Of a DNA stretch of 64,000 nt, positions 32,951 to 49,617 are shown one piece after another. Numbering within the stretch: position 1 is the first letter of the stretch; every line of letters begins with the position of its first letter. The notes beneath the pieces were generated by a model, which saw nothing but the letters and a program-made list of their open reading frames with translations, was not told the origin of the DNA and made no database searches. This stretch comes from Paenibacillus massiliensis 2301065 = DSM 16942 (GTDB taxonomy: Bacteria > Bacillota > Bacilli > Paenibacillales > Paenibacillaceae): NCBI RefSeq assembly GCF_000377505.1, contig NZ_KB898186.1:496001-560000 (forward strand). Reading direction: 5' to 3'. The translations under genes and the position numbers were made by a program.

Positions 32951-33100
32951 TAACTATCTCACGTTATATGTTAGATGTCAAGGTGGGTGGTGAACAGCTT
33001 ATGTGCCCAGCTAACAATAAAAAAATAAATAATAAAGCTATCCATTTTAAAGAAATCAATCATAAAGGAATCAGGGATGAAAAAAAATATGCTACCCTCC

Positions 33101-33130
33101 TTGGGAAGTGCCCGTTAATTCATGTACAAT
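33101..33130 (+). promoter_or_regulatory. Probable promoter of the cardiolipin synthase gene
   Basis: TTGGGA (33101-33106) and TACAAT (33125-33130) are 18 bases apart, giving a leader of about 115 bases with no obvious fold. The 32951-33100 stretch is AT-rich without a gene. Confidence 0.4.
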
Positions 33131-33252
33131 ATAAGTTGGTCAACCTGTGCCATGAGCAGCAGGAGTCGGCTGTTCCGCAGTGCCGGGGATGCCCTGGTGT
33201 AGTGCTGCAGGGACAGGCCACGAATGGGCCGGACCTTCAACCGGAAGTGAGG

Positions 33253-34770
33253 ATGAGTATGAGACGAGGTCTACTGGCAATCTTGATTGCAGCCGTTATT
33301 TTTGTAAGCTATTATTTCGGTCTGTTTGGCTTTATCGGTACTAATGAAGGGACAATCATCAGTATTTTCTCCACCTTGTCAGTAATCTCGATTAGCTTGA
33401 TTATCTTCATGGAGAACCGTAATCCGTCGACGACGATGTCATGGATTCTTCTGCTAGCGTTACTGCCGATTGTAGGACTTCCACTGTACTTCTTGTTCGG
33501 GCAAAATGTATTCAAGCGTCGTAAATACAATAAAAAGGCGCTCCTGGATCAGGAGGCCTATGAGCGAATCGATAACTATGCATTGCGTAAGGAGCAGGAG
33601 CTGACACGGTTCAGCCAGAATCAGCGCCAGCTGCTCCAGCTGTCACGGCGTCTGGCCCGCTCGCCGGTATCCTTTAACTCCGAGACACGGGTGCTCACCA
33701 ATGGTGAAGAGACCTTCTCGACGCTCCTGGAGGAGCTGCAGAAGGCCGAGCACCATATCCATATGGAATATTATATTTTCCGTGATGATGATATCGGGAC
33801 TAGCATTCAGCAGATTCTGATTGCGAAGGCCAATGAGGGTGTGAAAGTACGGTTCATGTACGATGCCGTCGGCAGCATCCAGTTATCGAAGGCATTCCTG
33901 CGGGAAATGAAGCAGGCGGGTATTGAGGTCGTAGCCTATGGGGGAGCCAAGATTCTCTTCTTCTCCAGTCGGGTCAATTATCGGAATCACCGTAAAATTG
34001 TAGTGATCGACGGTACTACAGGCTTCATTGGCGGTCTGAATGTAGGGGACGAGTACCTTAGTCGTAACAAGGCATATGGTTTCTGGCGCGATACACATAT
34101 GATCGTCAAAGGTGAAGCTGTGCGCACCCTGCAGATTATTTTTCTGCAGGATTGGCTGCATATGACCGATCAGAAGATTCTGGAGCCAGAGTACCTGTCT
34201 CCTGATATGGAGCATCGCGGGGATGGGGCCATTCAGATTATTGCCAGCGGCCCGGATAACGAGCGACGGGCACTGAAGAATATATTCTTCGCCATGATTA
34301 CGTCAGCCCGCAAGTCTGTCTGGATCGCCACGCCGTATTTCATACCGGATCAGGATATATTGACTGCACTGCGCACGGCTGCTCTATCTGGCCTGGATGT
34401 CAGGCTTCTATTCCCGGCCAAGCCTGATAAGTGGCTGCCCTTCCTGGCATCACACTCGTATTTTCCGTCCTTACTGGAGGTAGGGGCGAAGATCTATGAA
34501 TATGAACGCGGATTTCTCCATTCCAAGCTCCTCATTATTGATGGGGAGATGGCTACGATCGGCACAGCCAATATGGACATGCGCAGCTTCCATTTGAATT
34601 TCGAGGTCAATGCTCTGCTGGTCGATACGGAAAGTGTCCGCCGCATTGTGTACGATTATGAACGGGATCTCAAGTACACGAAGGAGATCGTCCATGAGGA
34701 GTTCATGAACAAGCGCATTACCAAGCGCGTGCTGGAATCAGCTGCAAGGCTACTATCTCCGCTGCTGTAA
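33253..34770 (+). CDS. cls: Cardiolipin synthase (PLD superfamily)
   Basis: The enzyme joins two phosphatidylglycerols into cardiolipin at the membrane. The 505 residues start with two hydrophobic segments (LLAILIAAVIFVSYYFGLF and WILLLALLPIVGLPLYFLFG). They contain two HxKx4D motifs, HRKIVVIDGTTGFIGGLN (about residue 245) and HSKLLIIDGEMATIGTAN (about 422), the marks of phospholipase-D transferases. I chose ATG 33253, with 33259 as an alternative given GTGAGG; the frame is open 95 codons further upstream, but that part has no family resemblance and no ribosome binding site. Confidence 0.93.
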   Translation: MSMRRGLLAILIAAVIFVSYYFGLFGFIGTNEGTIISIFSTLSVISISLIIFMENRNPSTTMSWILLLALLPIVGLPLYFLFGQNVFKRRKYNKKALLDQEAYERIDNYALRKEQELTRFSQNQRQLLQLSRRLARSPVSFNSETRVLTNGEETFSTLLEELQKAEHHIHMEYYIFRDDDIGTSIQQILIAKANEGVKVRFMYDAVGSIQLSKAFLREMKQAGIEVVAYGGAKILFFSSRVNYRNHRKIVVIDGTTGFIGGLNVGDEYLSRNKAYGFWRDTHMIVKGEAVRTLQIIFLQDWLHMTDQKILEPEYLSPDMEHRGDGAIQIIASGPDNERRALKNIFFAMITSARKSVWIATPYFIPDQDILTALRTAALSGLDVRLLFPAKPDKWLPFLASHSYFPSLLEVGAKIYEYERGFLHSKLLIIDGEMATIGTANMDMRSFHLNFEVNALLVDTESVRRIVYDYERDLKYTKEIVHEEFMNKRITKRVLESAARLLSPLL

Positions 34771-34803: not shown

Positions 34804-36297
34804 CTAGAACGTGGTAAAGCCCAGTATATTCTGCAAATGATACACGATATCCTTGAGGAACACCGTGTCCTCCAGATAGGCTTCAAGGGCAAGACTGTAC
34901 TCAGCATCACGGTTATTCCAGATACGGTCGAAATAATCACGAACCTGCATGGCCAGAGGACTATCGCCAGGAGCAGCTACCCATAGCTCATTCTCCAGGT
35001 TCAGATCCTTCAGATTCCGCTTGGTGAAATTAGTGGAGCCTCCGATGATCAGGTGCGGGCCCTCAACCTTGGCGATGTACATCATTTTTGTATGATACTG
35101 CTCGAATGTGGTGTTGTACCATCGGATTTGGATGCTGCCGTTCGATTGTTCATGGAGTTCATCAGCCACAGGGCGGTTCGGGATACCGACCTTCTCCTGT
35201 CCGAAGGCATTTTCATTCGGGTCCAGCAGCAGCTGCACCTTGACGCCGCGACGATCAGCTTCCAGCAGTGATTTCAAGACCGCCCTATCCGCCAGATAAA
35301 ACATGCCCATGTGAATGGTATCTCCTTTATTCGTTTCCTGAATCATTCGTAATACTTCCTGATAGACCTTCCCCTCGGTCAGATACTTCATCTGGTACAA
35401 GCCCTGATCGGGGGAGGTCATCTGCTGTAGCTGTGATTGAACGTCTGGAAAAGGAGACTCACCGGATAGGCGCAGCACAGCTTGCTCACTCTCTATGATC
35501 TCTGCGATGATGGGGCCGCTTACCTCCAGTGCCATATTCGAATGAAAGGCGCTTGCGTCATGGACGTTGCCTGAGGAAATTAAGGCGCTCTTCTCGCTGG
35601 CGACCAGCTTGCGATGATTGGCCTTCACATTTAGCAGCTTAAGGTAAGATCTGGCCGTCATCTCAGGTCCCTCATCTGCCATTAGGTTGGGCAACCACCC
35701 TGTGCCCTGCTGACCGAACCATTGAAAAAAGGTGCGCCAGACGGCGGAATAGAGCGGCGTAGAATCTCGCAGGGGATCGACATTCGTCTGTACGACACGA
35801 ATCCCTGCCTGCTGCATACGGGTCAGCAGTGGATTAGAACCCGAATGATAGTTCGTATTAATCTCGTCTGTAATGAACAGAATGTCCATTTGTGGGCGTT
35901 CTGTTTTTTTATCAATTAAAGCCTTCGTGAGCTGAGCACTTACTGGTGGGAATTGCTGATCAACATGTGTATAGCCGTTGAACAGGAACATATCAATGAC
36001 GAGAAATTGCTCAGCTTCATCGACGATCTGCAATATCCGGTCTGTAATCTGTGCCTCCTGCGTGAGCTGGCCTTCTGCCGAGGGATAGGTCAGGTCTGTC
36101 CAGAAGCGGATGTCGTCTGTGTGGTATAGTTCACTCTCGTAAGAGATTCCCGCAGGCAACGGCTTGTTCGTCTGGTACAGCATCACAGCCCCTAGCCATA
36201 GGCATAGTCCCACCAGAATGCATACTACGGGATGCTTGCGAACGAACTTTCCTGCTTGATTCTTAAAGGAGCCTGCCTTTAGTTGTGAAGATTGCAT
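34804..36297 (-). CDS. Membrane-anchored phospholipase-D-like protein with altered HKD motifs
   Basis: The 497-residue protein has one N-terminal membrane anchor (HPVVCILVGLCLWLGAVMLY) and two PLD-like halves: NHRKLVASEKSALISSGN and YHTKMMYIAKVEGPHLIIGG with STNF. His and Lys of both HxK motifs are kept, but the Asp four residues on is replaced (Glu/Ser in the first, Ala in the second). It is therefore a PLD-superfamily member outside the classical cardiolipin synthases, probably facing the outside. It converges with cls and diverges from the light regulator gene. ATG 36297 follows AAGGGGG; a longer open frame upstream crosses the regulator promoter and is rejected. Confidence 0.8.
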   Translation of the reverse strand: MQSSQLKAGSFKNQAGKFVRKHPVVCILVGLCLWLGAVMLYQTNKPLPAGISYESELYHTDDIRFWTDLTYPSAEGQLTQEAQITDRILQIVDEAEQFLVIDMFLFNGYTHVDQQFPPVSAQLTKALIDKKTERPQMDILFITDEINTNYHSGSNPLLTRMQQAGIRVVQTNVDPLRDSTPLYSAVWRTFFQWFGQQGTGWLPNLMADEGPEMTARSYLKLLNVKANHRKLVASEKSALISSGNVHDASAFHSNMALEVSGPIIAEIIESEQAVLRLSGESPFPDVQSQLQQMTSPDQGLYQMKYLTEGKVYQEVLRMIQETNKGDTIHMGMFYLADRAVLKSLLEADRRGVKVQLLLDPNENAFGQEKVGIPNRPVADELHEQSNGSIQIRWYNTTFEQYHTKMMYIAKVEGPHLIIGGSTNFTKRNLKDLNLENELWVAAPGDSPLAMQVRDYFDRIWNNRDAEYSLALEAYLEDTVFLKDIVYHLQNILGFTTF

Positions 36298-36371: not shown

Positions 36372-36423
36372 TCGACATTCGGATTTTGCAGGTGTATAAT
36401 CGCTGTATATTGTTTGTATAAGC
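36372..36423 (+). promoter_or_regulatory. CarH-like gene promoter with three 11-bp direct-repeat operator units
   Basis: TCGACA (36372-36377) and TATAAT (36395-36400) are 17 bases apart. TGTATA occurs at 36393, 36404 and 36415, an exact 11-base period, covering the -10 box and start point. Tandem 11-bp units are the known operator design of CarH, so this is a likely autorepression site. It also lies about 95 bases before the divergent PLD-like gene. Confidence 0.72.
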
Positions 36424-36552
36424 TTCCTTTTCGTGCGAAGGCTGATGTCCTGATACGGAGTAATCTGTACGGAAGCCCAGCTCATTTTTTACACAAGAGC
36501 AAAGAGGACCGTGTAAATTTTCTTCTTGAAATGATTGAAAGTGGTGAACAGG

Positions 36553-37449
36553 ATGTACACGATTCGACAGGTGTCTGCCATGCTGGGTATTCCCTCCGTC
36601 ACACTTCGCGCTTGGGAGAATAGATACGGGGCGGTGCAGCCGCAGCGAACCGAGACCGGATACCGCACCTATAGCATAGAGGATGTCAACGACCTGCGGT
36701 GGCTCAAGGAGCAGGTAGAGACTCATGACGCTCCCATCTCTCAGGCTGTTAAGCAGCTGAAATCGCGCAAGCAGCAGAGCGAGAGCCTTCACCCAGCCAT
36801 GGAGCACATGGCCCAGGACTCCTATAGTGATCTCGCAGAGCGGATCTACCAGGTACTGCTTCGGTTCGATGCGGCGCAGGGGCACTCTATGATTGATATG
36901 GGATTCACGATGCATGGCTATGATGCCATGTTCTACAGAGTGCTATCTACCATCCTCATTCGGGTCGGAGACGATTGGGAGCAGGGCAAGGCGACAGTGG
37001 CTCAGGAGCATTTTATTACCCAGCTCATCTCGCAGCGTTTCTATCAATTCTTCTATCTGTTCCCGGTTAACACTCGCTATCCAAAGGCGCTGGCCATCTG
37101 TCCAGAGGGCGAGCACCATCAGGTGGGGCTGCTTCAGTTCGCCCTGTTTCTTCGCAAGAAAGGAGTAGACGTACTCTACCTGGGTGCGAATACACCACTC
37201 GATGGACTACGGGCGTTGATCTCGGATCAGCACGTCGAACTCATCTGCATGTCTGTAACCGGAGTAGAACGTGTCGTACAGGCGGATCAGATGGTTCACC
37301 AGCTGCACAAGCAGCATCCCTCTCTTGACTTTATTCTAGGGGGCAAAGGCTATGAACAAGCGACAGCTCCCCGCTACCCGCAGTGGATCGTGAAGCAGCA
37401 TCCTGATGACTGGCAGGAATGGTTTGGCACGAAATTCTCAGATATCTGA
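36553..37449 (+). CDS. CarH/LitR-type B12-dependent light-sensing MerR repressor
   Basis: The 298-residue protein has an N-terminal MerR winged helix (MYTIRQVSAMLGIPSVTLRA, WENRYGAVQP), a four-helix domain and a Rossmann-like cobalamin domain. The B12 motif ExHxxG is EHHQVG with axial His189. The motif Wx9EH (W142, E152, H153), which in CarH stacks against the adenosyl group and defines light sensing, is present. Known CarH tetramers bind DNA in the dark with adenosylcobalamin and fall apart in light. It precedes the carotenoid operon and both promoters carry 11-bp TGTATA repeats, so it very probably represses pigment genes in the dark. ATG 36553 follows AGTGGTG. Confidence 0.9.
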   Translation: MYTIRQVSAMLGIPSVTLRAWENRYGAVQPQRTETGYRTYSIEDVNDLRWLKEQVETHDAPISQAVKQLKSRKQQSESLHPAMEHMAQDSYSDLAERIYQVLLRFDAAQGHSMIDMGFTMHGYDAMFYRVLSTILIRVGDDWEQGKATVAQEHFITQLISQRFYQFFYLFPVNTRYPKALAICPEGEHHQVGLLQFALFLRKKGVDVLYLGANTPLDGLRALISDQHVELICMSVTGVERVVQADQMVHQLHKQHPSLDFILGGKGYEQATAPRYPQWIVKQHPDDWQEWFGTKFSDI

Positions 37450-37493
37450 CTTGTGAACATTTGATAAATAGTTAAAATTATTCTCTTTTCATT

Positions 37494-37548
37494 TCTGTAT
37501 AAAATTCGTATTATGATTGTATAAGGTTTGTATACTTATTTTATACAG
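37494..37548 (+). promoter_or_regulatory. crt operon promoter with about five 11-bp operator units
   Basis: Hexamers at 37496 (TGTATA), 37507 (CGTATT), 37518 (TGTATA), 37529 (TGTATA) and 37540 (TTTATA) keep an exact 11-base spacing. TTGTAT (37517-37522) and TTTATA (37540-37545), 17 bases apart, are the best -35/-10 pair and lie inside the array. TATACA at 37542-37547 adds an inverted half-site. The array sits between the CarH-like gene and the first crt gene. Confidence 0.7.
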
Positions 37549-37618: not shown

Positions 37619-39169
37619 ATGAGCAAGGATCACTCGGCAACACGTGTCTCGGTGATTGGCGCAGGTCCGGGAGGCCTCGCCGCTGCCATGCTGTTGGCCG
37701 CCAAGGGATATCATGTTGATGTGTATGAGAAGCAGCCGCGCATCGGTGGTCGTTCCTCCCGGCTGGAGCTGGGGGAATACCGCTTTGACCGTGGAGCCAC
37801 TTTTTTGATGATGCCATCCTTATTGGAAGAGCTGTTTGAAGCAGCCGGGCGCTCTGTCCATGATTATGTGGATTTGAAGAGACTCGACCCTCTGTATGCT
37901 TTGCATTTCGGAAATACCGTATTCACACCGTCATCTGATCTGGAGCAGACTGTCGCACAGATTGAGAAGCTGTTCCCGGGTAACGGGGAAGGCTACAGGC
38001 GGTTCATGCATGAGGAGCAGTTGAAGTTCGACCGTGTCTCGCCTTTGCTAAGAAGACCTTTCACGGGCTGGACCGACTATCTGCGATCAGATCTGCTGCG
38101 CGCTCTGCCGAGGTTGCATGCGCTCGATACAGTCTACGGACGGCTGTCCAAATACTTCACGGATGAGCGTCTCCGCTGGGCCTTCACCTTTCAGTCGAAA
38201 TATTTGGGGATGTCACCATGGGAATGTCCGGGCACCTTCACCATCTTATCCTTCATGGAGCACCGTTATGGTCTCTATCACCCGATTGGGGGTGTGCATG
38301 CACTCTTTGATGCTATGGCTAAGGTCATTCAGGAGTATGGAGGGGTTATCCATACCAGCTGCGGGGTCCGTGAGGTCACAGTAGAGCGGGGCAGAGCAAC
38401 CGGTTTGATCCGGGACAATGGAGAGCGAGTGGAGGCTGATCATGTTGTCGTGAATGCTGATTTTGGTACGGCGGTAACGAAGCTGTTTGCTCCTGGAGTA
38501 CTGAGGAAGTACACGCCAGCTCATATGGAACGCAAGAAATTCTCACTCTCGACCGTAATGCTGTATCTGGGCATTGAAGGCACGGTGGATCTTCCACACC
38601 ATTCGGTTCATTTTGCAGAGGACTACCGTCAGAATGTCGATGACATTACCAAGCATATGCGGCTCTCGGAAGATCCTTCGATCTATGTGCACAATCCATC
38701 ACTGCTCGACCCGACGCTGGCTCCTGCTGGCAAGTCTTCACTCTATGTATTGATGCCCGTACCGAATCTCGGAGCGGATGTAGACTGGGATCGAGAACGG
38801 GATGCTGTAATGGATAAGCTGCTAGCTCGACTGGAACGCATTCCTGCGCTTGCCGATCTTCGGACTCGTATCGAGGTGGCCCATCACATGACCCCGCTGG
38901 AGTGGCAGAACGAGCTGGATGTCTATAAAGGAGCAACCTTCAATCTCGCGCATAATCTAGGACAAATGATGGCACTGCGGCCACACAACCGATTCGAGGA
39001 AGTTGAGGGAGTATGGCTGGCTGGAGGGGGTACGCATCCGGGAAGCGGCCTGCCGACCATCTTCGAGTCTGCCCGTATTAGCGTGGATCTGATCGAACGT
39101 GAGGATCGGCGTCATAGACATCGCACTACCGTCATGCACAGTACCACAGATACGAGGCACAGCCTATGA
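37619..39169 (+). CDS. crtN: CrtI/CrtN-type carotenoid desaturase 1
   Basis: The 516-residue flavoenzyme has the dinucleotide motif VSVIGAGPGGLAAAMLLAAK, then GGRSSRLELGEYRFDRGATF, YVHNPSLLDPTLAPAGKSSL and the C-terminal FAD motif VWLAGGGTHPGSGLPTIFES, as in phytoene and dehydrosqualene desaturases. It is likely the main desaturase that turns the colourless C30 (or C40) product of CrtM into a yellow polyene. GAAGGGAG precedes ATG 37619; upstream in-frame ATG 37517 lies in the operator and is rejected. The stop overlaps the next start by four bases. Confidence 0.88.
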   Translation: MSKDHSATRVSVIGAGPGGLAAAMLLAAKGYHVDVYEKQPRIGGRSSRLELGEYRFDRGATFLMMPSLLEELFEAAGRSVHDYVDLKRLDPLYALHFGNTVFTPSSDLEQTVAQIEKLFPGNGEGYRRFMHEEQLKFDRVSPLLRRPFTGWTDYLRSDLLRALPRLHALDTVYGRLSKYFTDERLRWAFTFQSKYLGMSPWECPGTFTILSFMEHRYGLYHPIGGVHALFDAMAKVIQEYGGVIHTSCGVREVTVERGRATGLIRDNGERVEADHVVVNADFGTAVTKLFAPGVLRKYTPAHMERKKFSLSTVMLYLGIEGTVDLPHHSVHFAEDYRQNVDDITKHMRLSEDPSIYVHNPSLLDPTLAPAGKSSLYVLMPVPNLGADVDWDRERDAVMDKLLARLERIPALADLRTRIEVAHHMTPLEWQNELDVYKGATFNLAHNLGQMMALRPHNRFEEVEGVWLAGGGTHPGSGLPTIFESARISVDLIEREDRRHRHRTTVMHSTTDTRHSL

Positions 39170-40620
39170 GCAAACGTATAGCGGTTGTTGGATCAGGCAT
39201 TGGCGGATTGACCAGTGCATTGTTGCTAAGTCATAGAGGCTACGAGGTTACCGTGTATGAGCGGTCTGATCGTCTTGGGGGCCGAATTGCCTATGAATCG
39301 GATGGTCACTACCAGATCGATCAAGGGCCTACGATTGTGTTGTTACCTGAGGTTATTCACGAGATCCTGGAGCAAGCGGGTATGAGCCGCGAAAGCCTTC
39401 GTTTTATACCTTGTGATCCACTCTATCGCATCCACTATGCCGATGGGCGAATCATGACCAAGTATAGAGACACGGAGCATCAGGCAGAAGAGCTGGAGCG
39501 GATATTTCCAGGAGAGGCCGCTGGCTTTCGACGATTCATGGCAGATATGTCGGAGCTATTTCCAGCCGGTCGTGCTTCCATACTCGAACAGGATTTCCCG
39601 AGCTATCGCTCATTCTTTACGCGTGAACGACTATCCTTACTGCGCAGGCTGAAGGCCTACAAGAGCATGCGTGGCGTAATCGGTGACTATTTCCGTACCG
39701 AACAGCTGAAGGATGCCTATTCTCTCCAAAGTCTATACATTGGAGGGGCGCCTTTCTCGACACCTGGTATTTACTCTCTTCTGCCCTATGCGGAGCATGC
39801 GTACGGTGTATGGATGCTAGAGGGTGGATATGCTGCATTGCCAGCTATTCTGGGTGAAGAATTGAAGAGGAGAGGTGTCACGTTCCGACTCCATGCAGAG
39901 GTGCAAAGTCTATCTGTAGTGGATGGCGTATGCCGTGGACTGACCAGTGGGTCAGAGTTGGAGGCCTATGATGGTGTGCTGTACAATGGCGACTTTCCGA
40001 ATATTCACAATCTACTTGATGCCGGGACATTGCCGGCAAAGAGAAGGTTCCGTCCATCTTCTGGCTGTGTCTTGCTGTATGTTGGCGCGAATCGACGCTG
40101 GGAGAAGATGCTGACCCATCAATTTTTCCTGCCGCAGAGTCTTCAGGCCAATCTGAAGCAGGTGTTCCGCCATTCGCAGCTGCCGGAAGATCCGTCGTTC
40201 TATGTGTTTAATCCCGCAGCCCTTGATTCGAATGCTGCTCCTGCAGGGGAGAGTGTACTATATTTCCTGATTCCTGTTCCGAACAGCACAGATATGTTCT
40301 GGGAGGAAGGAGCTGAAGCATTGGCTGAACGGGTCATTGCAAGCGCAGAGGAGAGAGGCTTTGACGGTCTGAGACAGTCGGTCAAATGGCTGAAGATTCG
40401 TACGCCACTGGAGGCAGAGCGTGATGGTCTCTATGGTGGGGGCAGCTTCGGTATCGCCCCGGTATTATGGCAATCTGGTGTCTACAGGCCGCAGCCGCGA
40501 CCATTCCCCATTCGGCGCTTGGCTGCTGCGGGGGCATCTGTCCATCCAGGCGGAGGCGTACCGATCGTCATGCAAGGGGCCAGAATGGCCGTTAATCAAC
40601 TGATAAAGGAGTTGGAATAA
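39166..40620 (+). CDS. CrtN-like carotenoid desaturase/oxidoreductase 2
   Basis: This second amine-oxidase-fold flavoenzyme (484 residues) has IAVVGSGIGGLTSALLLSHR at the N-terminus, GGRIAYESDGHYQIDQGPTI, FYVFNPAALDSNAAPAGESV and the C-terminal RRLAAAGASVHPGGGVPIVM. It is clearly diverged from the first desaturase. In Bacillus C30 pathways an extra CrtN or CrtD-like enzyme makes a 3,4-double bond after hydration; that is a plausible role here. Its ATG overlaps the previous stop (ATGA) and its stop overlaps crtM (TAATG). Confidence 0.83.
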   Translation: MSKRIAVVGSGIGGLTSALLLSHRGYEVTVYERSDRLGGRIAYESDGHYQIDQGPTIVLLPEVIHEILEQAGMSRESLRFIPCDPLYRIHYADGRIMTKYRDTEHQAEELERIFPGEAAGFRRFMADMSELFPAGRASILEQDFPSYRSFFTRERLSLLRRLKAYKSMRGVIGDYFRTEQLKDAYSLQSLYIGGAPFSTPGIYSLLPYAEHAYGVWMLEGGYAALPAILGEELKRRGVTFRLHAEVQSLSVVDGVCRGLTSGSELEAYDGVLYNGDFPNIHNLLDAGTLPAKRRFRPSSGCVLLYVGANRRWEKMLTHQFFLPQSLQANLKQVFRHSQLPEDPSFYVFNPAALDSNAAPAGESVLYFLIPVPNSTDMFWEEGAEALAERVIASAEERGFDGLRQSVKWLKIRTPLEAERDGLYGGGSFGIAPVLWQSGVYRPQPRPFPIRRLAAAGASVHPGGGVPIVMQGARMAVNQLIKELE

Positions 40621-41510
40621 TGACACACCCGGAGAAGATGCTGGAATCCGTATTTCATTCATGTGAACAGATGATTCGCAAGGGCTCTTCGTCTTTTTAT
40701 CACGCATTTAGCGGGCTACCCTCGCCACGGAAAGAAGCCGTGTATGTGATTTATGCCTTTTGCCGGATGATTGATGATAGTGTAGATGAGCCGGAGCGCT
40801 CACCATATTCCATTTATGAGCTAAGAGAGCATTTTATGCAGCTGGACCGAGCTGAAGGACACTTTATCTGGCCTGCACTTCGCTGGCTGTTCGTGACCTT
40901 CCCGCAGCTGGATCAGCAGCCGTTCCTGTCGCAGATGGATGGTCAATTGCGTGATCTGTCTGTGACGCACTATGATTCGATGGAGCAATTGGAGGATTAC
41001 TGCTATCTGGTAGCCGGTACAGTCGGAGAGATGCTGCTGCCTGTGCTGCGAGAGGATCGTAGTGAGGCTGCTGTTGAAGCGGGAATCCGGCTGGGTAAGG
41101 CGATGCAGATCGTCAATATCATGCGTGACGTAGGGGAGGATCGTGACCGCGGACGCCGCTATATTCCGCTGGAGCTTATGCAGAAGCATGGTTACTCGGA
41201 GGCGGCATGGCTGCGTGGTGAGATCAACTCTGACTTCAAAGCGATGCTCGGTGAATTGAAGGAGATTGCATTGAACTGGTTCCAGGAGGGACTCGCAGAT
41301 GTAGAGTCATACCCGCCAGCTAGCGGCATGGCTGTAGAACTGGCTGCCACCTTCTACGCTTCCATTCTCAATGCCATTGAGGATAACGATTATGATGTGT
41401 ACACGAAGCGGGCCTTCGTCAGTGACGAGGATAAGCATATGATGTTCGGACTCATCCTGGCGCAATATGATGCGCATGTCATGGAGGCCGCTTCAACGGC
41501 GGTGTCCTGA
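40620..41510 (+). CDS. crtM: Dehydrosqualene/phytoene synthase (CrtM/CrtB)
   Basis: The 296-residue prenyl transferase condenses two prenyl diphosphates head to head. Both Asp-rich motifs are present: MIDDSVDEPERS (about residue 46) and MRDVGEDRDRGRRYIP (about 168). KGSSSFYHAFSGLP near the N-terminus is typical of squalene/phytoene synthases. C30 chemistry (farnesyl diphosphate to dehydrosqualene) is likely by analogy with other Bacillales crt clusters, but chain length is not fixed by sequence. It is translationally coupled to its neighbours on both sides. Confidence 0.92.
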   Translation: MTHPEKMLESVFHSCEQMIRKGSSSFYHAFSGLPSPRKEAVYVIYAFCRMIDDSVDEPERSPYSIYELREHFMQLDRAEGHFIWPALRWLFVTFPQLDQQPFLSQMDGQLRDLSVTHYDSMEQLEDYCYLVAGTVGEMLLPVLREDRSEAAVEAGIRLGKAMQIVNIMRDVGEDRDRGRRYIPLELMQKHGYSEAAWLRGEINSDFKAMLGELKEIALNWFQEGLADVESYPPASGMAVELAATFYASILNAIEDNDYDVYTKRAFVSDEDKHMMFGLILAQYDAHVMEAASTAVS

Positions 41511-41511
41511 G

Positions 41512-42240
41512 ATGATTCATATCGTTTTTTGGGCATGGTATGCCATAGGCACATTGTTGCTGTGGACGATTGGTGTACCGGATGTACTACAATTTTCAAA
41601 TGGACTGTTTCTCGTATTCTACGGCCTTTATGCGCTATCTCTGATGTTCACACTGTCCGACCAGTCAGTCAAATGGTGGCGAAGAGGTCATACCTGGCTT
41701 GCAGCGGCCGTGATCTGGACTGGAGGAATGTCCGTCGAATGGCTGGGGGTTCATACAGGCTGGCCATTCGGTCAATATGAATATTCACGTATTCTGGGCT
41801 GGCATCTGTTCGGCGTTCCGGTGACGCTGGGCTTTGCCTGGATTGGCGTGGTATGTAGTGGGGCGCTTCTGGCGAGCAGACTTCCAGGGGGCCGTTCTAA
41901 TCTATGGATTAGAGCCTTGCTTACCGCAGCCTGGGCAGTGCTTCTGGATCTGGTGCTTGATCCCGTGGCCCATCTGCGGGGCTTCTGGTCTTGGGAGGCG
42001 GTAGGCGGGTTCTATGGGGTACCCCTCAGTAATTTTGCAGCCTGGTTCATTGTAGGTGGGCTGCTCTCACTGATACTGCCAGCCTTGCAGCCAGATGCTC
42101 GTCGGGACCTGCGCGCCGTGAGACTGTATCAGCTGATACTGCTGATGTTCGGCGTCCTTGGGCTTCAGGCAGGCTTGTGGTGGTGCGGGTTGGTGATGGT
42201 GCTCGGTATGTTGCTCGCGGAAGGGAGTCGAAAGATATGA
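41512..42240 (+). CDS. CruF-like membrane carotenoid hydratase
   Basis: The 242-residue protein has seven or so hydrophobic segments and the DUF422/CruF pattern: VEWLGVHTGWPFGQYEYSRI, LGWHLFGVPVTLGFAWIGVV, LDLVLDPVAHLRGFWSWE and FYGVPLSNFAAWF. CruF enzymes add water across the end double bond of a linear carotenoid to give a 1-hydroxy group, which can then be glycosylated. That fits the glycosyltransferase two genes on. ATG 41512 is one base after the crtM stop; an earlier in-frame ATG lies inside crtM. Confidence 0.83.
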   Translation: MIHIVFWAWYAIGTLLLWTIGVPDVLQFSNGLFLVFYGLYALSLMFTLSDQSVKWWRRGHTWLAAAVIWTGGMSVEWLGVHTGWPFGQYEYSRILGWHLFGVPVTLGFAWIGVVCSGALLASRLPGGRSNLWIRALLTAAWAVLLDLVLDPVAHLRGFWSWEAVGGFYGVPLSNFAAWFIVGGLLSLILPALQPDARRDLRAVRLYQLILLMFGVLGLQAGLWWCGLVMVLGMLLAEGSRKI

Positions 42241-43010
42241 TCGCCGCCGCTAAATCACGAGTGTTCCACAAGATCTTCCGCCGATATAACGAGTGGTATT
42301 TACTGCGGCGCGCCTTCCGCTCGGTAGCGGCCGTAGGATCGCCCGATCCAGATATCGCTGGTAGCAGACCTGTACTCTATATAATGAACCATAGCTCCTG
42401 GTGGGATGGCCTATGGTTCTATCATGCTATCCAGCGTTTGTCCCATGCAGATTGGGCGCAATATTATGTCATGATGGAGGAACGACAGTTGTCCTCCTTT
42501 CGTTTTTTTCGGCGGCTCGGTGCTTATTCAATTGATCGTGAACGGGTGTCCGATATTCGATCAAGCTTCAAATATACGGCTGGGCTGTTGAACCAAGGCC
42601 ACCGTGTACTGATCTATCCACAAGGTACAATCACGCATGCGGATGCCGGACCGCTGGAGTTCAAGCGGGGGGTTGCTGTAATTCTGCAGCAGGCTCCGCG
42701 TACACTTGTGGTGCCCGTCACCGCCTATCATGGGCTGCTTCAGCATGATCGTCCAGAGGTGACTCTTCGCTTCGGTGAAGCGCTGTACCCTCCGAACGAT
42801 ACATGGAGGAGCATGACGAGCCGGGAAAGTGTTGACCTGCTGCAATCTGTGTTACAGAGGCAGTTGGATCGGCATCGACATGAATTCGTTCAGTCGCTGG
42901 GTGGTGCGACAGATTCGGACCCGAATTACATTCAATTGCTTCCAACGGGTCAATCCATCAGTGAGGTATACAGCAAATGCAGAGCTAAGGTGATACCATG
43001 GAACCGCTAG
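42237..43010 (+). CDS. PlsC-like acyltransferase (CrtO-type, carotenoid ester)
   Basis: The 257-residue protein belongs to the glycerophosphate acyltransferase (PlsC) family. It has the catalytic NHX4D motif as MNHSSWWDGLWF at about residue 49, RLGAYSIDRE (block II) and IYPQGTITHADAG (block III, usually FPEGTRS). In staphyloxanthin synthesis an acyltransferase puts a fatty acid on the sugar of the glycosylated carotenoid, and this gene's place in the operon suggests the same. It overlaps the CruF-like gene by four bases (ATGA). Confidence 0.84.
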   Translation: MIAAAKSRVFHKIFRRYNEWYLLRRAFRSVAAVGSPDPDIAGSRPVLYIMNHSSWWDGLWFYHAIQRLSHADWAQYYVMMEERQLSSFRFFRRLGAYSIDRERVSDIRSSFKYTAGLLNQGHRVLIYPQGTITHADAGPLEFKRGVAVILQQAPRTLVVPVTAYHGLLQHDRPEVTLRFGEALYPPNDTWRSMTSRESVDLLQSVLQRQLDRHRHEFVQSLGGATDSDPNYIQLLPTGQSISEVYSKCRAKVIPWNR

Positions 43011-44215
43011 TAGAGGGGGGCATGGTCATCCTGCTGGTCATTGGCTGTGCTCTGCTCCTGCAATGGGGATTTGCCCTCTGGAATGCATCTGTCCTACCTA
43101 TACTGGGGCAGTCGGATGGCTTGAATGCAGACAGCCTTAGATTCGAGGCTAGAGAGCCCTCTGGGAAGCCTGTATTATCCATTCTGATTCCCGCCCGAAA
43201 TGAAGAGGCCCATATTCAGGCCTGTCTGGAGCATGTACTGTCATGCGATCGTCAAGGAATCACACTGGAGCTACTTATCTTGAATGACAGGTCGGAGGAT
43301 GCTACTGCTGCGCTTGTAAAGGAATGCATTGCCCGCCAGGCTACAGCAAGTGTGGACGATTCATCGCTAAGCATTCGCATGCTTCAGGGAGCAGTGCCTC
43401 CTAAGGGCTGGCTTGGCAAATCTTATGCCTGTCATCAACTAGCGACTGCGGCACAGGGCACTTGGCTGTTATTTATGGATGCGGACGTGCGTCTTGCGCC
43501 GGATGCTCTGCAAGCTGCTCTGCGGACAGCAGTGTATCAAGGCAAGGGTTTGATCACAGGCTTTCCGCGTCAAGTGACGATGACCTGGCTGGAGAGACTG
43601 ATTGTGCCAATGATGATGTTCACGATTATTTGCCACCTTCCCATAGCCCTGATCAAGCATTCGCGCTCACCATTGTTCGTTGCAGCTATGGGAGCTTTCC
43701 TGCTAATTCACAGGGACAGCTATTCGGCAGCAGGTGGACACGAGGCTATCCGGGCTGCGATGGTGGACGATATGAGTCTTGCCCGTGCAGTCAAGCGAGC
43801 CGGGCATCCGGTTACGCTTGCTTCAGTGTTCACTCATGTTCATATGCGGATGTACTGTAATGCTGCAGAGGTATGGAATGGCTTCACCAAAAATGTATAT
43901 GACGGAATTGGCAGGCAGCCCTGGCTGCTGGTCCTGTTAATTCTAAGCTACAGCGCAATGTATCTAATCCCTGTGCTAATACTGGGAGGGGCTGTGGTCT
44001 TAGGGGAATCGACTCTGGCTGGCGTGTCCCTTGCTGCTGTTCTTCTGGGAATGGCGATCAAACGAACAGCTGACAGAGCGGCAGGAGGCCAGCCTTTATG
44101 GCATGCGGCGCTCTTGCCGCTATCCATTGTCGGGTTGTTGCTGATCGCCATACGATCCTGGTATGGAGCTGCTTCGGGCAAGGGCTATTACTGGAAAGGT
44201 AGATGGTATTCATGA
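42998..44215 (+). CDS. GT2-family glycosyltransferase (CrtQ-like)
   Basis: The 405-residue protein has an N-terminal membrane helix, a GT-A domain (LSILIPARNEEAHIQACLEH, LLILNDRSEDAT, the DxD-like LLFMDADVRL, VDDMSLARAVK) and three C-terminal membrane helices. This is the CrtQ/CruC-like arrangement of carotenoid glycosyltransferases, which attach a hexose to a hydroxyl or carboxyl end group at the membrane. It overlaps the acyltransferase by 13 bases and the last desaturase by four. Confidence 0.85.
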   Translation: MEPLVEGGMVILLVIGCALLLQWGFALWNASVLPILGQSDGLNADSLRFEAREPSGKPVLSILIPARNEEAHIQACLEHVLSCDRQGITLELLILNDRSEDATAALVKECIARQATASVDDSSLSIRMLQGAVPPKGWLGKSYACHQLATAAQGTWLLFMDADVRLAPDALQAALRTAVYQGKGLITGFPRQVTMTWLERLIVPMMMFTIICHLPIALIKHSRSPLFVAAMGAFLLIHRDSYSAAGGHEAIRAAMVDDMSLARAVKRAGHPVTLASVFTHVHMRMYCNAAEVWNGFTKNVYDGIGRQPWLLVLLILSYSAMYLIPVLILGGAVVLGESTLAGVSLAAVLLGMAIKRTADRAAGGQPLWHAALLPLSIVGLLLIAIRSWYGAASGKGYYWKGRWYS

Positions 44216-45714
44216 GAGACGGAGTTATGTCTGGAAAGTCTGCGGGAGCTATCGTCATCGGTGGTGGCATCGGTGGATTGTCGTGTGCCATCAGACTTGC
44301 AGCCGGAGGTGTCCCTGTGAAGCTGCTGGAGAAGCAGCCACGAGTGGGCGGCAAGCTGCAGCGTGTGGAGCTGGAGGGGTATCATTTTGATCGCGGTCCG
44401 AGCACGATAACGATGCCTGATGCCTTCCGTGCAGTATTTGCTTCGGCGGGTGCAAGGCTGGAGGATTACTGTGAGCTGTATGAACTGGAGCCGCGCACGC
44501 GAAATATATTCGCGGATGGGACGATTGTGGACCTCAGCAAGGACCGGGTGTGGATGAAGGAGCAGATTGCGTCCTACAGTACTGCCGATGCACGGCGCTA
44601 TGATGCCTTCATGCGAGAGGCGACAGCGCTATATCGGGAGGCGGACGCACGCTTCTTACATAAGCTGCTGTTGGGGCCGCGTGACAAGCTGAATATGGGT
44701 ATGCTTCGTGGCTTGCTTCGGGTACGTCCGTGGCTGACCCTGCACAAGCTGCTGCGCCGATATTTTAGCCATCCTCATACGCTTGCAATGTTCGGAAGAT
44801 ACGCCACCTATGTGGGCTCATCCCCCTATCAGTCGCCGTCGATCTTCGCCATGATGGCCCATCTGGAGGGAGACCTTGGCGTGTACGGTGTACGGGGTGG
44901 GACCTCCGCACTGGTCGATGGGCTGGAGCAGCTGGCTATGGCGTGTGGGGTAGAGATTATGACCGGAACCGAGGTAGAGCGGATTGTGGTCATAAATGGA
45001 AAAATACAGGGCGTCGAGACGACAGCCGGCTTCTATCCTTCCTCGCTGGTCATTGCGAACGGTGATGTACTATCTGTGAATTCAAGGCTGTTGGCCTCGT
45101 CAGAGCGTCCATCAATGAGCGATGCCAGCATTGCCGGATATGAGCCCTCGTTGTCTGGCTTCGTGACGTTAGCGGGGATTCCCAGGCAATATGAGCTGCT
45201 GCGCCATCATACGGTCTTCTTCCCGGAGAACTATGAGCAGGAATTCGAGTCCATATTTGTCCAGAAGCAGCCGCCAGTGGACCCTACCATATATATTTGC
45301 TATTCGGGCTACTCCGAGGCCGGACTTGCACCTCCAGACGGGAGTAACTTATTCATACTGACCAATGCCCCGTATGTATCAGCACATTGGAACTGGGAGC
45401 AGGAGGCAGAGGCCTATCGAGCTCGACTGCTACGCAGACTGGCGGCATGTGGAATCGACGGCTTGGAACATGCTGATGTGCTGCTGAGCTATACCCCGGA
45501 GCAGCTCGCGGCTGATACTTATGCACATCGGGGAGCGATCTATGGCATTTCCTCCAATTCAGTCCGACAGACCTTCGCAAGACCCGGGAACAGAAGTCGA
45601 GATGTAGAGGGGCTGTGGTATGTCGGGGGGACGACACATCCCGGAGGCGGGACACCCATTGTTGCGTTATCTGGCCAGTTGGTGGCTGAGCGTATTCTGC
45701 AGGAGAGAACTTAA
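44212..45714 (+). CDS. CrtN/CrtP-like carotenoid oxidase/desaturase 3
   Basis: The third flavoenzyme (500 residues) begins GAIVIGGGIGGLSCAIRLAA, has KQPRVGGKLQRVELEGYHFD with RGPSTITMPD, HTVFFPENYEQEFESIF and the C-terminal LWYVGGTTHPGGGTPIVALS. The EFESIF stretch is typical of CrtP/CrtNb, which oxidise the terminal methyl of a diapocarotene to aldehyde or acid. An additional desaturation role is possible. The start at 44212 overlaps the previous stop (ATGA); ATG 44203 and 44227 are alternatives. It is the last gene of the operon. Confidence 0.82.
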   Translation: MRDGVMSGKSAGAIVIGGGIGGLSCAIRLAAGGVPVKLLEKQPRVGGKLQRVELEGYHFDRGPSTITMPDAFRAVFASAGARLEDYCELYELEPRTRNIFADGTIVDLSKDRVWMKEQIASYSTADARRYDAFMREATALYREADARFLHKLLLGPRDKLNMGMLRGLLRVRPWLTLHKLLRRYFSHPHTLAMFGRYATYVGSSPYQSPSIFAMMAHLEGDLGVYGVRGGTSALVDGLEQLAMACGVEIMTGTEVERIVVINGKIQGVETTAGFYPSSLVIANGDVLSVNSRLLASSERPSMSDASIAGYEPSLSGFVTLAGIPRQYELLRHHTVFFPENYEQEFESIFVQKQPPVDPTIYICYSGYSEAGLAPPDGSNLFILTNAPYVSAHWNWEQEAEAYRARLLRRLAACGIDGLEHADVLLSYTPEQLAADTYAHRGAIYGISSNSVRQTFARPGNRSRDVEGLWYVGGTTHPGGGTPIVALSGQLVAERILQERT

Positions 45715-48297: not shown

Positions 48298-48483
48298 AGA
48301 ATAATGAAAACTGTGAACAATCCTACAAGTATATTCAAATAATCGAATATGAGTGGATTCGGATATGCCCTGATATCGGATATAATGATAGATGATGAAC
48401 ATGAGAATGCCATGAACCCACTCGAACGCAGGGTGGTTCATTGAGATATCAGACGATGAGAAGTGCAGAGAGGGAGTGAGCGC

Positions 48484-49617
48484 ATGAGCCGACCGGATCA
48501 CGACGAGCAGAGGGAAGACCAGATAGAGGAGCAAACGGAAGGACAGTTGGAAGAACAGCTGGAATCGCAGGGGGAAACGGTACGAACGGGTGAGCGAAAA
48601 ATGGAGCATGTGCGGCTATGTCTCCGCGAAAATGTAGCTGGTGAAGGAATTAGCAGCGGGCTGGAGCATTTAGTATTCAAGCATAACCCGCTGCCTGAGG
48701 TGGATTTTGATGACATCCAGCTGGCAAGCTATTTTCTGGGACACCAGTTGCAGGCACCGCTCCTTATTAGCTCTATGACAGGGGGAAGTGCTGGCACAGC
48801 ACAGATCAATCAGCGGCTTGCTGCAGCAGCAGAGGCCAGAGGCTGGGCACTGGGACTTGGCTCTATCCGCGCTGCTGTGGAGAAAGAGGAGCTGGCTTAT
48901 ACCTTTCAGGTACGAAAGCAGGCCCCGAGCATTCCGATCATCGCCAACCTGGGCGCCGTGCAGCTGAATTACGGCTTTGGTGTAGAGCAGTGCCAGCGTG
49001 CTGTGGATATGGCGGAGGCTGATATGCTGGTCTTGCATTTGAACAGCCTGCAGGAGGTATTTCAGCCAGAGGGCAACACGAACTTCAGCGGACTGCTCTC
49101 CCGGATTGAGGAGGTATGCAGTAGGCTAACGGTCCCTGTCGGAGTTAAGGAAGTAGGCTGGGGCATTGATGGCGTCACAGCTGCCAGACTTTTCTCGGTA
49201 GGCGTATCATTCATCGATGTAGCTGGTGCAGGCGGGACGAGCTGGAGTCAGGTGGAGAAGTTCCGTAATACAGATCCGATCAAACGGGCTGCCGCCGAGG
49301 CATTCGCTGATTGGGGTAACCCTACGGCGAGTTGTATCAGGGAGGTTCAGGAGCTCGAACAGGGGGCAGTGATCGGTAGTGGTGGACTGCGAAATGGAGT
49401 CGATGCAGCTAAGGCGATCGCGCTCGGTGCGGATCTGGCCGGATTTGGGCGCTCCCTCCTAGGGGCGGCAGTAGAATCCGAAGAGCTGGTGATCGAGCGA
49501 TTGGCTCAAGTGGAGTTGGAGCTGCGTACGGTGATGTTCGGCATTGGTGTGCGTGATGTCGAACAATTGAGAGGGACCTCTCGTCTTAGACAACGCGCAG
49601 GCCGAGGGGGTCTGTAG
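48484..49617 (+). CDS. fni: Type 2 isopentenyl-diphosphate delta-isomerase
   Basis: The FMN-dependent enzyme (377 residues) interconverts isopentenyl and dimethylallyl diphosphate, the precursors of carotenoids and quinones. Family landmarks are RKMEHVRLCL, FKHNPLPEVDFDDIQL, APLLISSMTGGSAGT, GLGSIRAA, HLNSLQEVFQPEGNTNFSG, GVKEVGWGI, DVAGAGGTSW and the FMN phosphate site IGSGGLRNGVDAAKAIALGA. The first 37 residues are an unusual Glu/Gln-rich extension not needed by the family. ATG 48484 has GGGAG 7 bases before it. It is separate from the crt operon. Confidence 0.93.
   Translation: MSRPDHDEQREDQIEEQTEGQLEEQLESQGETVRTGERKMEHVRLCLRENVAGEGISSGLEHLVFKHNPLPEVDFDDIQLASYFLGHQLQAPLLISSMTGGSAGTAQINQRLAAAAEARGWALGLGSIRAAVEKEELAYTFQVRKQAPSIPIIANLGAVQLNYGFGVEQCQRAVDMAEADMLVLHLNSLQEVFQPEGNTNFSGLLSRIEEVCSRLTVPVGVKEVGWGIDGVTAARLFSVGVSFIDVAGAGGTSWSQVEKFRNTDPIKRAAAEAFADWGNPTASCIREVQELEQGAVIGSGGLRNGVDAAKAIALGADLAGFGRSLLGAAVESEELVIERLAQVELELRTVMFGIGVRDVEQLRGTSRLRQRAGRGGL

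Follow-up and report, generated by a model that had tools for sequence, protein, structure and literature searches.

A CarH/LitR-type gene with predicted operators beside a carotenoid gene cluster in Paenibacillus massiliensis

A CarH/LitR-type protein next to carotenoid genes

The stretch of DNA analyzed here, hereafter the window, comprises 64,000 nucleotides of the Paenibacillus massiliensis 2301065 = DSM 16942 genome (contig NZ_KB898186.1, positions 496,001 to 560,000). At exactly 36553-37449 of its forward strand lies an open reading frame (ORF) that starts with ATG and encodes 298 residues followed by a stop codon, and a cluster of carotenoid (crt) genes stands downstream (Table 1). An initial annotation made from the sequence had taken the product for an adenosylcobalamin-type light-sensing repressor, citing a MerR domain, the motif EHHQVG with His189, and the residues W142 and E152-H153. 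The N-terminal DNA-binding domain is recognized by Pfam (MerR_1, 2.9e-13, above cut-off) and the residue numbering is right throughout. The C-terminal part contains the four-helix and Rossmann B12-binding domains of the CarH/LitR family (B12-binding_2, PF02607, 2e-6; B12-binding, PF02310, 3.6e-11), both above Pfam cut-offs. The protein, called window CarH below, is the only match to itself at E<=1e-20 in its own genome, where B12-binding matches number eight in total.

The two motifs that together define CarH homologues (PMC8156234; papers are cited by PMC number) are both exact in window CarH: the upper-face motif Wx9EH, as W142, E152 and H153, and the lower-face motif, published as ExHx2G-x41-SxV/T-x22-27-GG (PMC8156234) and present as E187xH189x2G-x41-SVT-x26-GG. 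The four elements described as a light-responsive signature (GxxW, EH, GxxH and GxxxP; PMC11796333) are found as G139-W142, E152H153, G186-H189 and G211-P215. When the PDB was searched with phmmer, the top matches were structures of Thermus thermophilus CarH (TtCarH; 3whp, E=1.2e-31; 5c8d, 1.5e-31), and CtMerR was also matched (8jbs, 1.7e-14). The alignment with TtCarH that the initial annotation had called for brings the ligand residues into register, W131, H132, E141, H142 and H177 of TtCarH (numbering of PMC10442372) being equivalent to W142, E143, E152, H153 and H189, and the nine DNA-binding-domain positions checked all agree. Cobalamin motifs may nevertheless outlive cobalamin dependence: Myxococcus xanthus CarA keeps the lower motif and yet acts independently of B12 (PMC8156234, PMC9304148). 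A CarA-like protein would occupy the same repeats and repress crt with no direct need for B12 or light, some other factor relieving repression. This is very unlikely here, as CarA is recognized by the absence of the tryptophan of Wx9EH, whereas window CarH retains W142 along with the complete motif.

Table 1. Genes and predicted control sites of the carH-crt locus, in window coordinates
Feature	Position	Strand	Details
Putative carH promoter	36372..36400	+	TCGACA-17-TATAAT, 11/12 consensus; -10 box within first carH repeat
carH operator (predicted)	36393..36425	+	Three tandem 11-bp direct repeats starting TGTATA at 36393, 36404, 36415; TnnACA on complement
carH/litR-type gene	36553..37449	+	298 aa; MerR helix-turn-helix aa 2-67, B12-binding_2 95-163, B12-binding 178-267; W142, E143, E152, H153, H189
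Putative crt promoter	37486..37514	+	TTTTCA-17-TATTAT, 9/12 consensus, weak; overlaps crt repeats
crt operator (predicted)	37496..37539	+	Four tandem 11-bp repeats at 37496, 37507 (degenerate), 37518, 37529
crtI-family desaturase, first crt gene	37619..39169	+	TIGR02734 492 bits, cut-off 238; start by eye
Second crtI/crtN-type enzyme	39166..40620	+	TIGR02734 323 bits, cut-off 238
crtB/crtM-type squalene/phytoene synthase	40620..41510	+	SQS_PSY 2.9e-63
Carotenoid biosynthesis protein, CruF-like hydratase	41467..42240	+	Caroten_synth 2.3e-37; NCBIfam CruF below cut-off
Acyltransferase	42237..43010	+	Pfam; start by eye, longest ORF from 42177
Glycosyltransferase family 2, CruG/HpnB-like	42998..44215	+	Below CruG/HpnB cut-offs
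Third crtI-family enzyme, CrtD-like	44203..45714	+	TIGR02734 377.6 bits, cut-off 238; CrtD models below cut-off

Tandem repeats at the carH and crt promoters

The carH gene and the crt cluster are each preceded by tandem 11-bp repeats lying over promoter elements, which by sequence alone is the layout of CarH-type operators. Full copies read TnnACA on the complement, the published operator core (nnnnTnnACAn, three repeats in Thermus, overlapping a -35 or -10 element; PMC9304148); the operators of Bacillus megaterium CarH have four repeats, or three and one pseudorepeat (PMC9304148). The carH promoter is the strongest promoter match in this region. Three promoter-like sites were found there where shuffles gave 2.0 on average, and the promoter count by itself therefore carries little weight.

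Genome-wide, the triple repeat occurs with 0-1 mismatch only at the carH and crt promoter sites. When up to 2 mismatches are allowed there are ten rows, four of them in the carH-crt locus; the other six, spread over five places, carry 2 mismatches each, and the backwards control gave four. Perfect repeat pairs gave twelve rows at ten places, three of these in the carH-crt locus, against one in the backwards control. Relative to mechanically called ORFs, four of the other places are inside an ORF, two are in gaps where convergent ORFs meet 3' end to 3' end and one is upstream of an ORF. The last precedes a lipoprotein-like ORF (G000:C5:91715) by about 30 bp and marks a possible, unproven second target of CarH. 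A wider regulon was rejected on these counts, though the pairs exceed their control. Repeats also recur near carH in relatives, where 116 of 322 flanks have at least two tandem copies and 22 of 322 at least three, as against 7 and 0 in shuffles (161 loci, 400 bp on each side, one mononucleotide shuffle each; the flanks are not independent of one another, the loci being related and in part overlapping in origin).

The carotenoid cluster and its neighbors

The carotenoid operon that the initial annotation placed next to carH is real: three desaturase-family genes, starting at 37619, 39166 and 44203, score above the TIGR02734 cut-off and are accompanied by a synthase gene. Read against the general scheme of carotenoid pathways, the combination of this synthase with three CrtI-family enzymes, a CruF-like protein, a glycosyltransferase and an acyltransferase suggests that the product is a glycosylated, acylated acyclic carotenoid. 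At 48463-49617 (+), 2.7 kb beyond the cluster, lies a gene for a protein of the FMN-dehydrogenase family (Pfam) that by eye is a type-2 isopentenyl-diphosphate isomerase. On the other side, a phospholipase D (PLD)-like gene (34804-36297, -) is divergent to carH, with a cardiolipin-synthase-like gene (32968-34770, +) beside it; both recur by carH in many Paenibacillus loci.

Conservation of the locus in relatives

A CarH match at E<=1e-20 is present in 54 of the 75 genus genomes and in 107 of 295 genomes of a family sample. With CarH scored as present at E<=1e-20 and crtI at E<=1e-100, and with the split-frame genes of genomes G005 and G041 counted as CarH-positive, the 75 genus genomes divide into 51 with both genes, 19 with neither, 3 with CarH only and 2 with crtI only, i.e., 70 of 75 are concordant (Fisher p about 1e-12, uncorrected for kinship). 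In the two split-frame genomes (loci L096 and L097, respectively) carH extends over two frames, and crtI was matched in part in G005 and not, at E<=1e-100, in G041. Many of the loci read share the order carH - crtI - crtN-like - crtB - cruF - acyltransferase - glycosyltransferase, with the PLD-like gene divergent from carH. Light-induced pigment is scored '+' for an isolate closest to Paenibacillus alvei (PMC6739363, Table 1).

Some relatives' carH loci have no crt genes nearby. Four such CarH-type genes, all on the minus strand (L075:5771-6763, L121:4877-5818, L124:4945-5865 and L127:4917-5921), are divergent to a gene for a small protein with PAS and methyl-accepting chemotaxis protein signaling domains (Pfam), and in every case two tandem TGTATA-type repeats stand within 400 bp upstream of carH; the small protein is possibly a soluble chemoreceptor controlled by light or B12. 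In Bacillus-type genomes (L144, L222) the genes downstream of CarH-like genes look by eye like ypbH/mecA and ypdA.

Window CarH is about 54-58% identical to nearly all other full-length matches in the genus, a figure that had hinted at horizontal transfer. The crt and PLD genes neighboring carH in locus L060 are similarly diverged (46-67%), and a quick tree groups the window with 12 other rows on one branch (starred), the named ones being Paenibacillus and one Neobacillus. Window carH is therefore taken as a diverged lineage, and horizontal transfer of the gene was set aside on the same two grounds.

Cobalamin supply

The genome has one PduO-type adenosyltransferase, four cobalamin riboswitches and CobS; in the same stretch as CobS are CobQ, CobU, CobT, CbiB and a BtuC/BtuF-like transporter that scores below the BtuC and BtuF cut-offs. 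Genes to assemble and to adenosylate cobalamin are present. The searches covered the assembly and adenosylation genes, and a supply of adenosylcobalamin by salvage is likely.

Proposed mechanism

Both defining motifs, the repeats at both promoters and the genes for cobalamin assembly and adenosylation support the identity proposed by the initial annotation. Window CarH is very probably an autoregulated CarH/LitR-type adenosylcobalamin photoreceptor that represses carotenogenesis, a reading to which I give a probability of roughly 0.88. The domains, the motifs, the operator-type repeats, the conserved gene order and the cobalamin-supply genes are all seen in the sequence; characterized homologues suggest how cofactor binding, oligomer change, repression and light induction would follow. 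In the dark, the protein would bind 5'-deoxyadenosylcobalamin, with His189 below the cobalt and Trp142, Glu152 and His153 around the adenosyl group, and the bound form would oligomerize, probably to a tetramer. The oligomer would occupy the three repeats that overlie the carH -10 box as well as the four at the crt promoter, and thereby block RNA polymerase. On exposure to UV, blue or green light the Co-C bond would break and the adenosyl group be lost, whereupon the oligomer would disassemble and leave the DNA, allowing transcription of the crt cluster and of carH. The strain is thus predicted to make its pigment in the light. This amounts to a concrete prediction for light control of Paenibacillus carotenoids, with both predicted operators located.

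The initial annotation had further set this route against control by sigma-B or a LOV protein, which fits two narrow tests: the best SigB match in the genome scores 206.6 bits against a curated cut-off of 315, and a single LOV-type coding pattern had no match with up to one mismatch, other photoreceptor kinds lying outside the search. LOV or SigB control of crt was discarded as unsupported on these tests. Control of crt chiefly by a stress sigma factor or flavin photoreceptor, carH being left as a relic, is extremely unlikely: apart from several sigma-factor matches under the SigB cut-off nothing was found in its favor, and carH is intact, with its repeats at both promoters.

A number of observations weigh against repression by a light-sensing CarH. 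The NCBIfam equivalog model NF052513 (TransRegCarH), though the best-scoring model, gives 148.1 bits against a cut-off of 400; the protein is therefore filed in the CarH/LitR family by its motifs, and not in the equivalog. At the interface, window CarH has H188-N213 where TtCarH has the pair R176-D201. The crt promoter match is weak (9/12), and of the seven further genome places with perfect repeat pairs only one is just upstream of an ORF. The genus counts are phylogenetically non-independent, and five genomes are discordant. Finally, the bis-histidine residue is missing (E143), and the H132A variant of TtCarH stays mostly tetrameric after light (PMC10442372).

A glutamate after the motif tryptophan

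The light state of TtCarH has His132, the residue next after the tryptophan, as its upper cobalt ligand; the photoproduct spectrum is marked by 359 nm for the bis-histidine form and by 352 nm for the H132A light state (PMC10442372). The bis-histidine light state cannot form likewise in window CarH, since this residue is a glutamate, Glu143; by comparison with TtCarH, the upper face of the cobalt should then carry water or a carboxylate in the light, rather than a second histidine. A histidine after the tryptophan is attributed to 'many CarH homologues' and is not given as defining (PMC9304148).

The residue was surveyed in a non-redundant set of 116 sequences that retain W, EH and the lower His, window CarH and TtCarH included; the set was picked by similarity to window CarH, and its figures are no census. 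Glutamate follows the tryptophan in 86 and histidine in 8. The sampled Bacillota CarH have glutamate in 83 of 91 cases and histidine in one, the Chloroflexota histidine in 6 of 13 and glutamate in none, and the Pseudomonadota glutamate in 3 of 11 and histidine in none; the last sequence is TtCarH, which the quick tree places at the end of a very long branch. The single Bacillota histidine belongs to Paenibacillus assamensis (L119:6001-6969), whose carH lies beside crt genes and whose tree neighbors have Glu or Ala. A covariation check on the same set gave, for the pair 188/213, HN 21, HD 19, RS 13, QN 10 and RD 9.

Natural variation at this position is already in print, with Arg in CtMerR, Gln in SasPcob and Tyr in AbDPcob (PMC11796333); text searches turned up no publication on the Glu form in Bacillota CarH, but the B. 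megaterium papers were outside their coverage and novelty is not claimed. One consequence might be that window CarH reports B12 supply more than light, the adenosylcobalamin-bound repressor forming an oligomer that survives illumination for want of the second histidine. The behavior of H132A, altered at the very position occupied by glutamate here, speaks for this. However, an earlier report of H132A disassembly is cited in the same paper (PMC10442372); CtMerR, which has Arg there, still changes from tetramer to monomer on illumination, its anaerobic light structure showing no bis-histidine ligation (PMC11796333); and glutamate is found in many crt-linked Bacillota CarH that also have repeats. 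A cofactor-level sensor is accordingly improbable, and a light-sensing repressor remains the preferred reading.

How a Glu-type CarH might switch can be put forward only tentatively. Conceivably, if somewhat doubtfully, most Bacillota CarH switch without bis-histidine ligation, Glu143, or Glu152 through a water, occupying Co(III) on its upper face once photolysis has taken place. A looser hold on the photoproduct would let the cobalamin leave and be re-adenosylated, making the protein a recyclable sensor; if so, P. assamensis, with its histidine inside the Glu clade, would be a natural counter-test. Most of the Bacillota CarH sampled have glutamate in place of the histidine on which the light-state model of Thermus centers. 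As reports conflict on the need for His132 in disassembly, the Glu clade is a natural test of that need and of the recovery of the spent cofactor, the route of which is called unidentified in a review (PMC8156234). The initial annotation is correct and describes a system of an ordinary kind; what the present analysis adds to it is the map of operators and the Glu143 group.

Comparison with known systems

Window CarH resembles TtCarH (PDB 3whp, 5c8d, 8c31) in its domains, Wx9EH, lower histidine, DNA-binding residues and 11-bp direct-repeat operators, but differs from it by His132 to Glu143, R176-D201 to H188-N213 and G160 to P171. CtMerR (8jbs, 8jbt) is likewise a MerR-B12 photoreceptor with the signature residues and a non-histidine after the tryptophan; it has Arg where window CarH has Glu, and is a weaker match than TtCarH. 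M. xanthus CarA shares the MerR and B12-binding domains and the role of crt repressor, yet is B12-independent and lacks the tryptophan (PMC9304148) that window CarH retains. B. megaterium CarH/LitR, also from the Bacillota, is likened here by its published operator description: its four repeats, or three and one pseudorepeat, are matched at the crt promoter of the window (PMC9304148).
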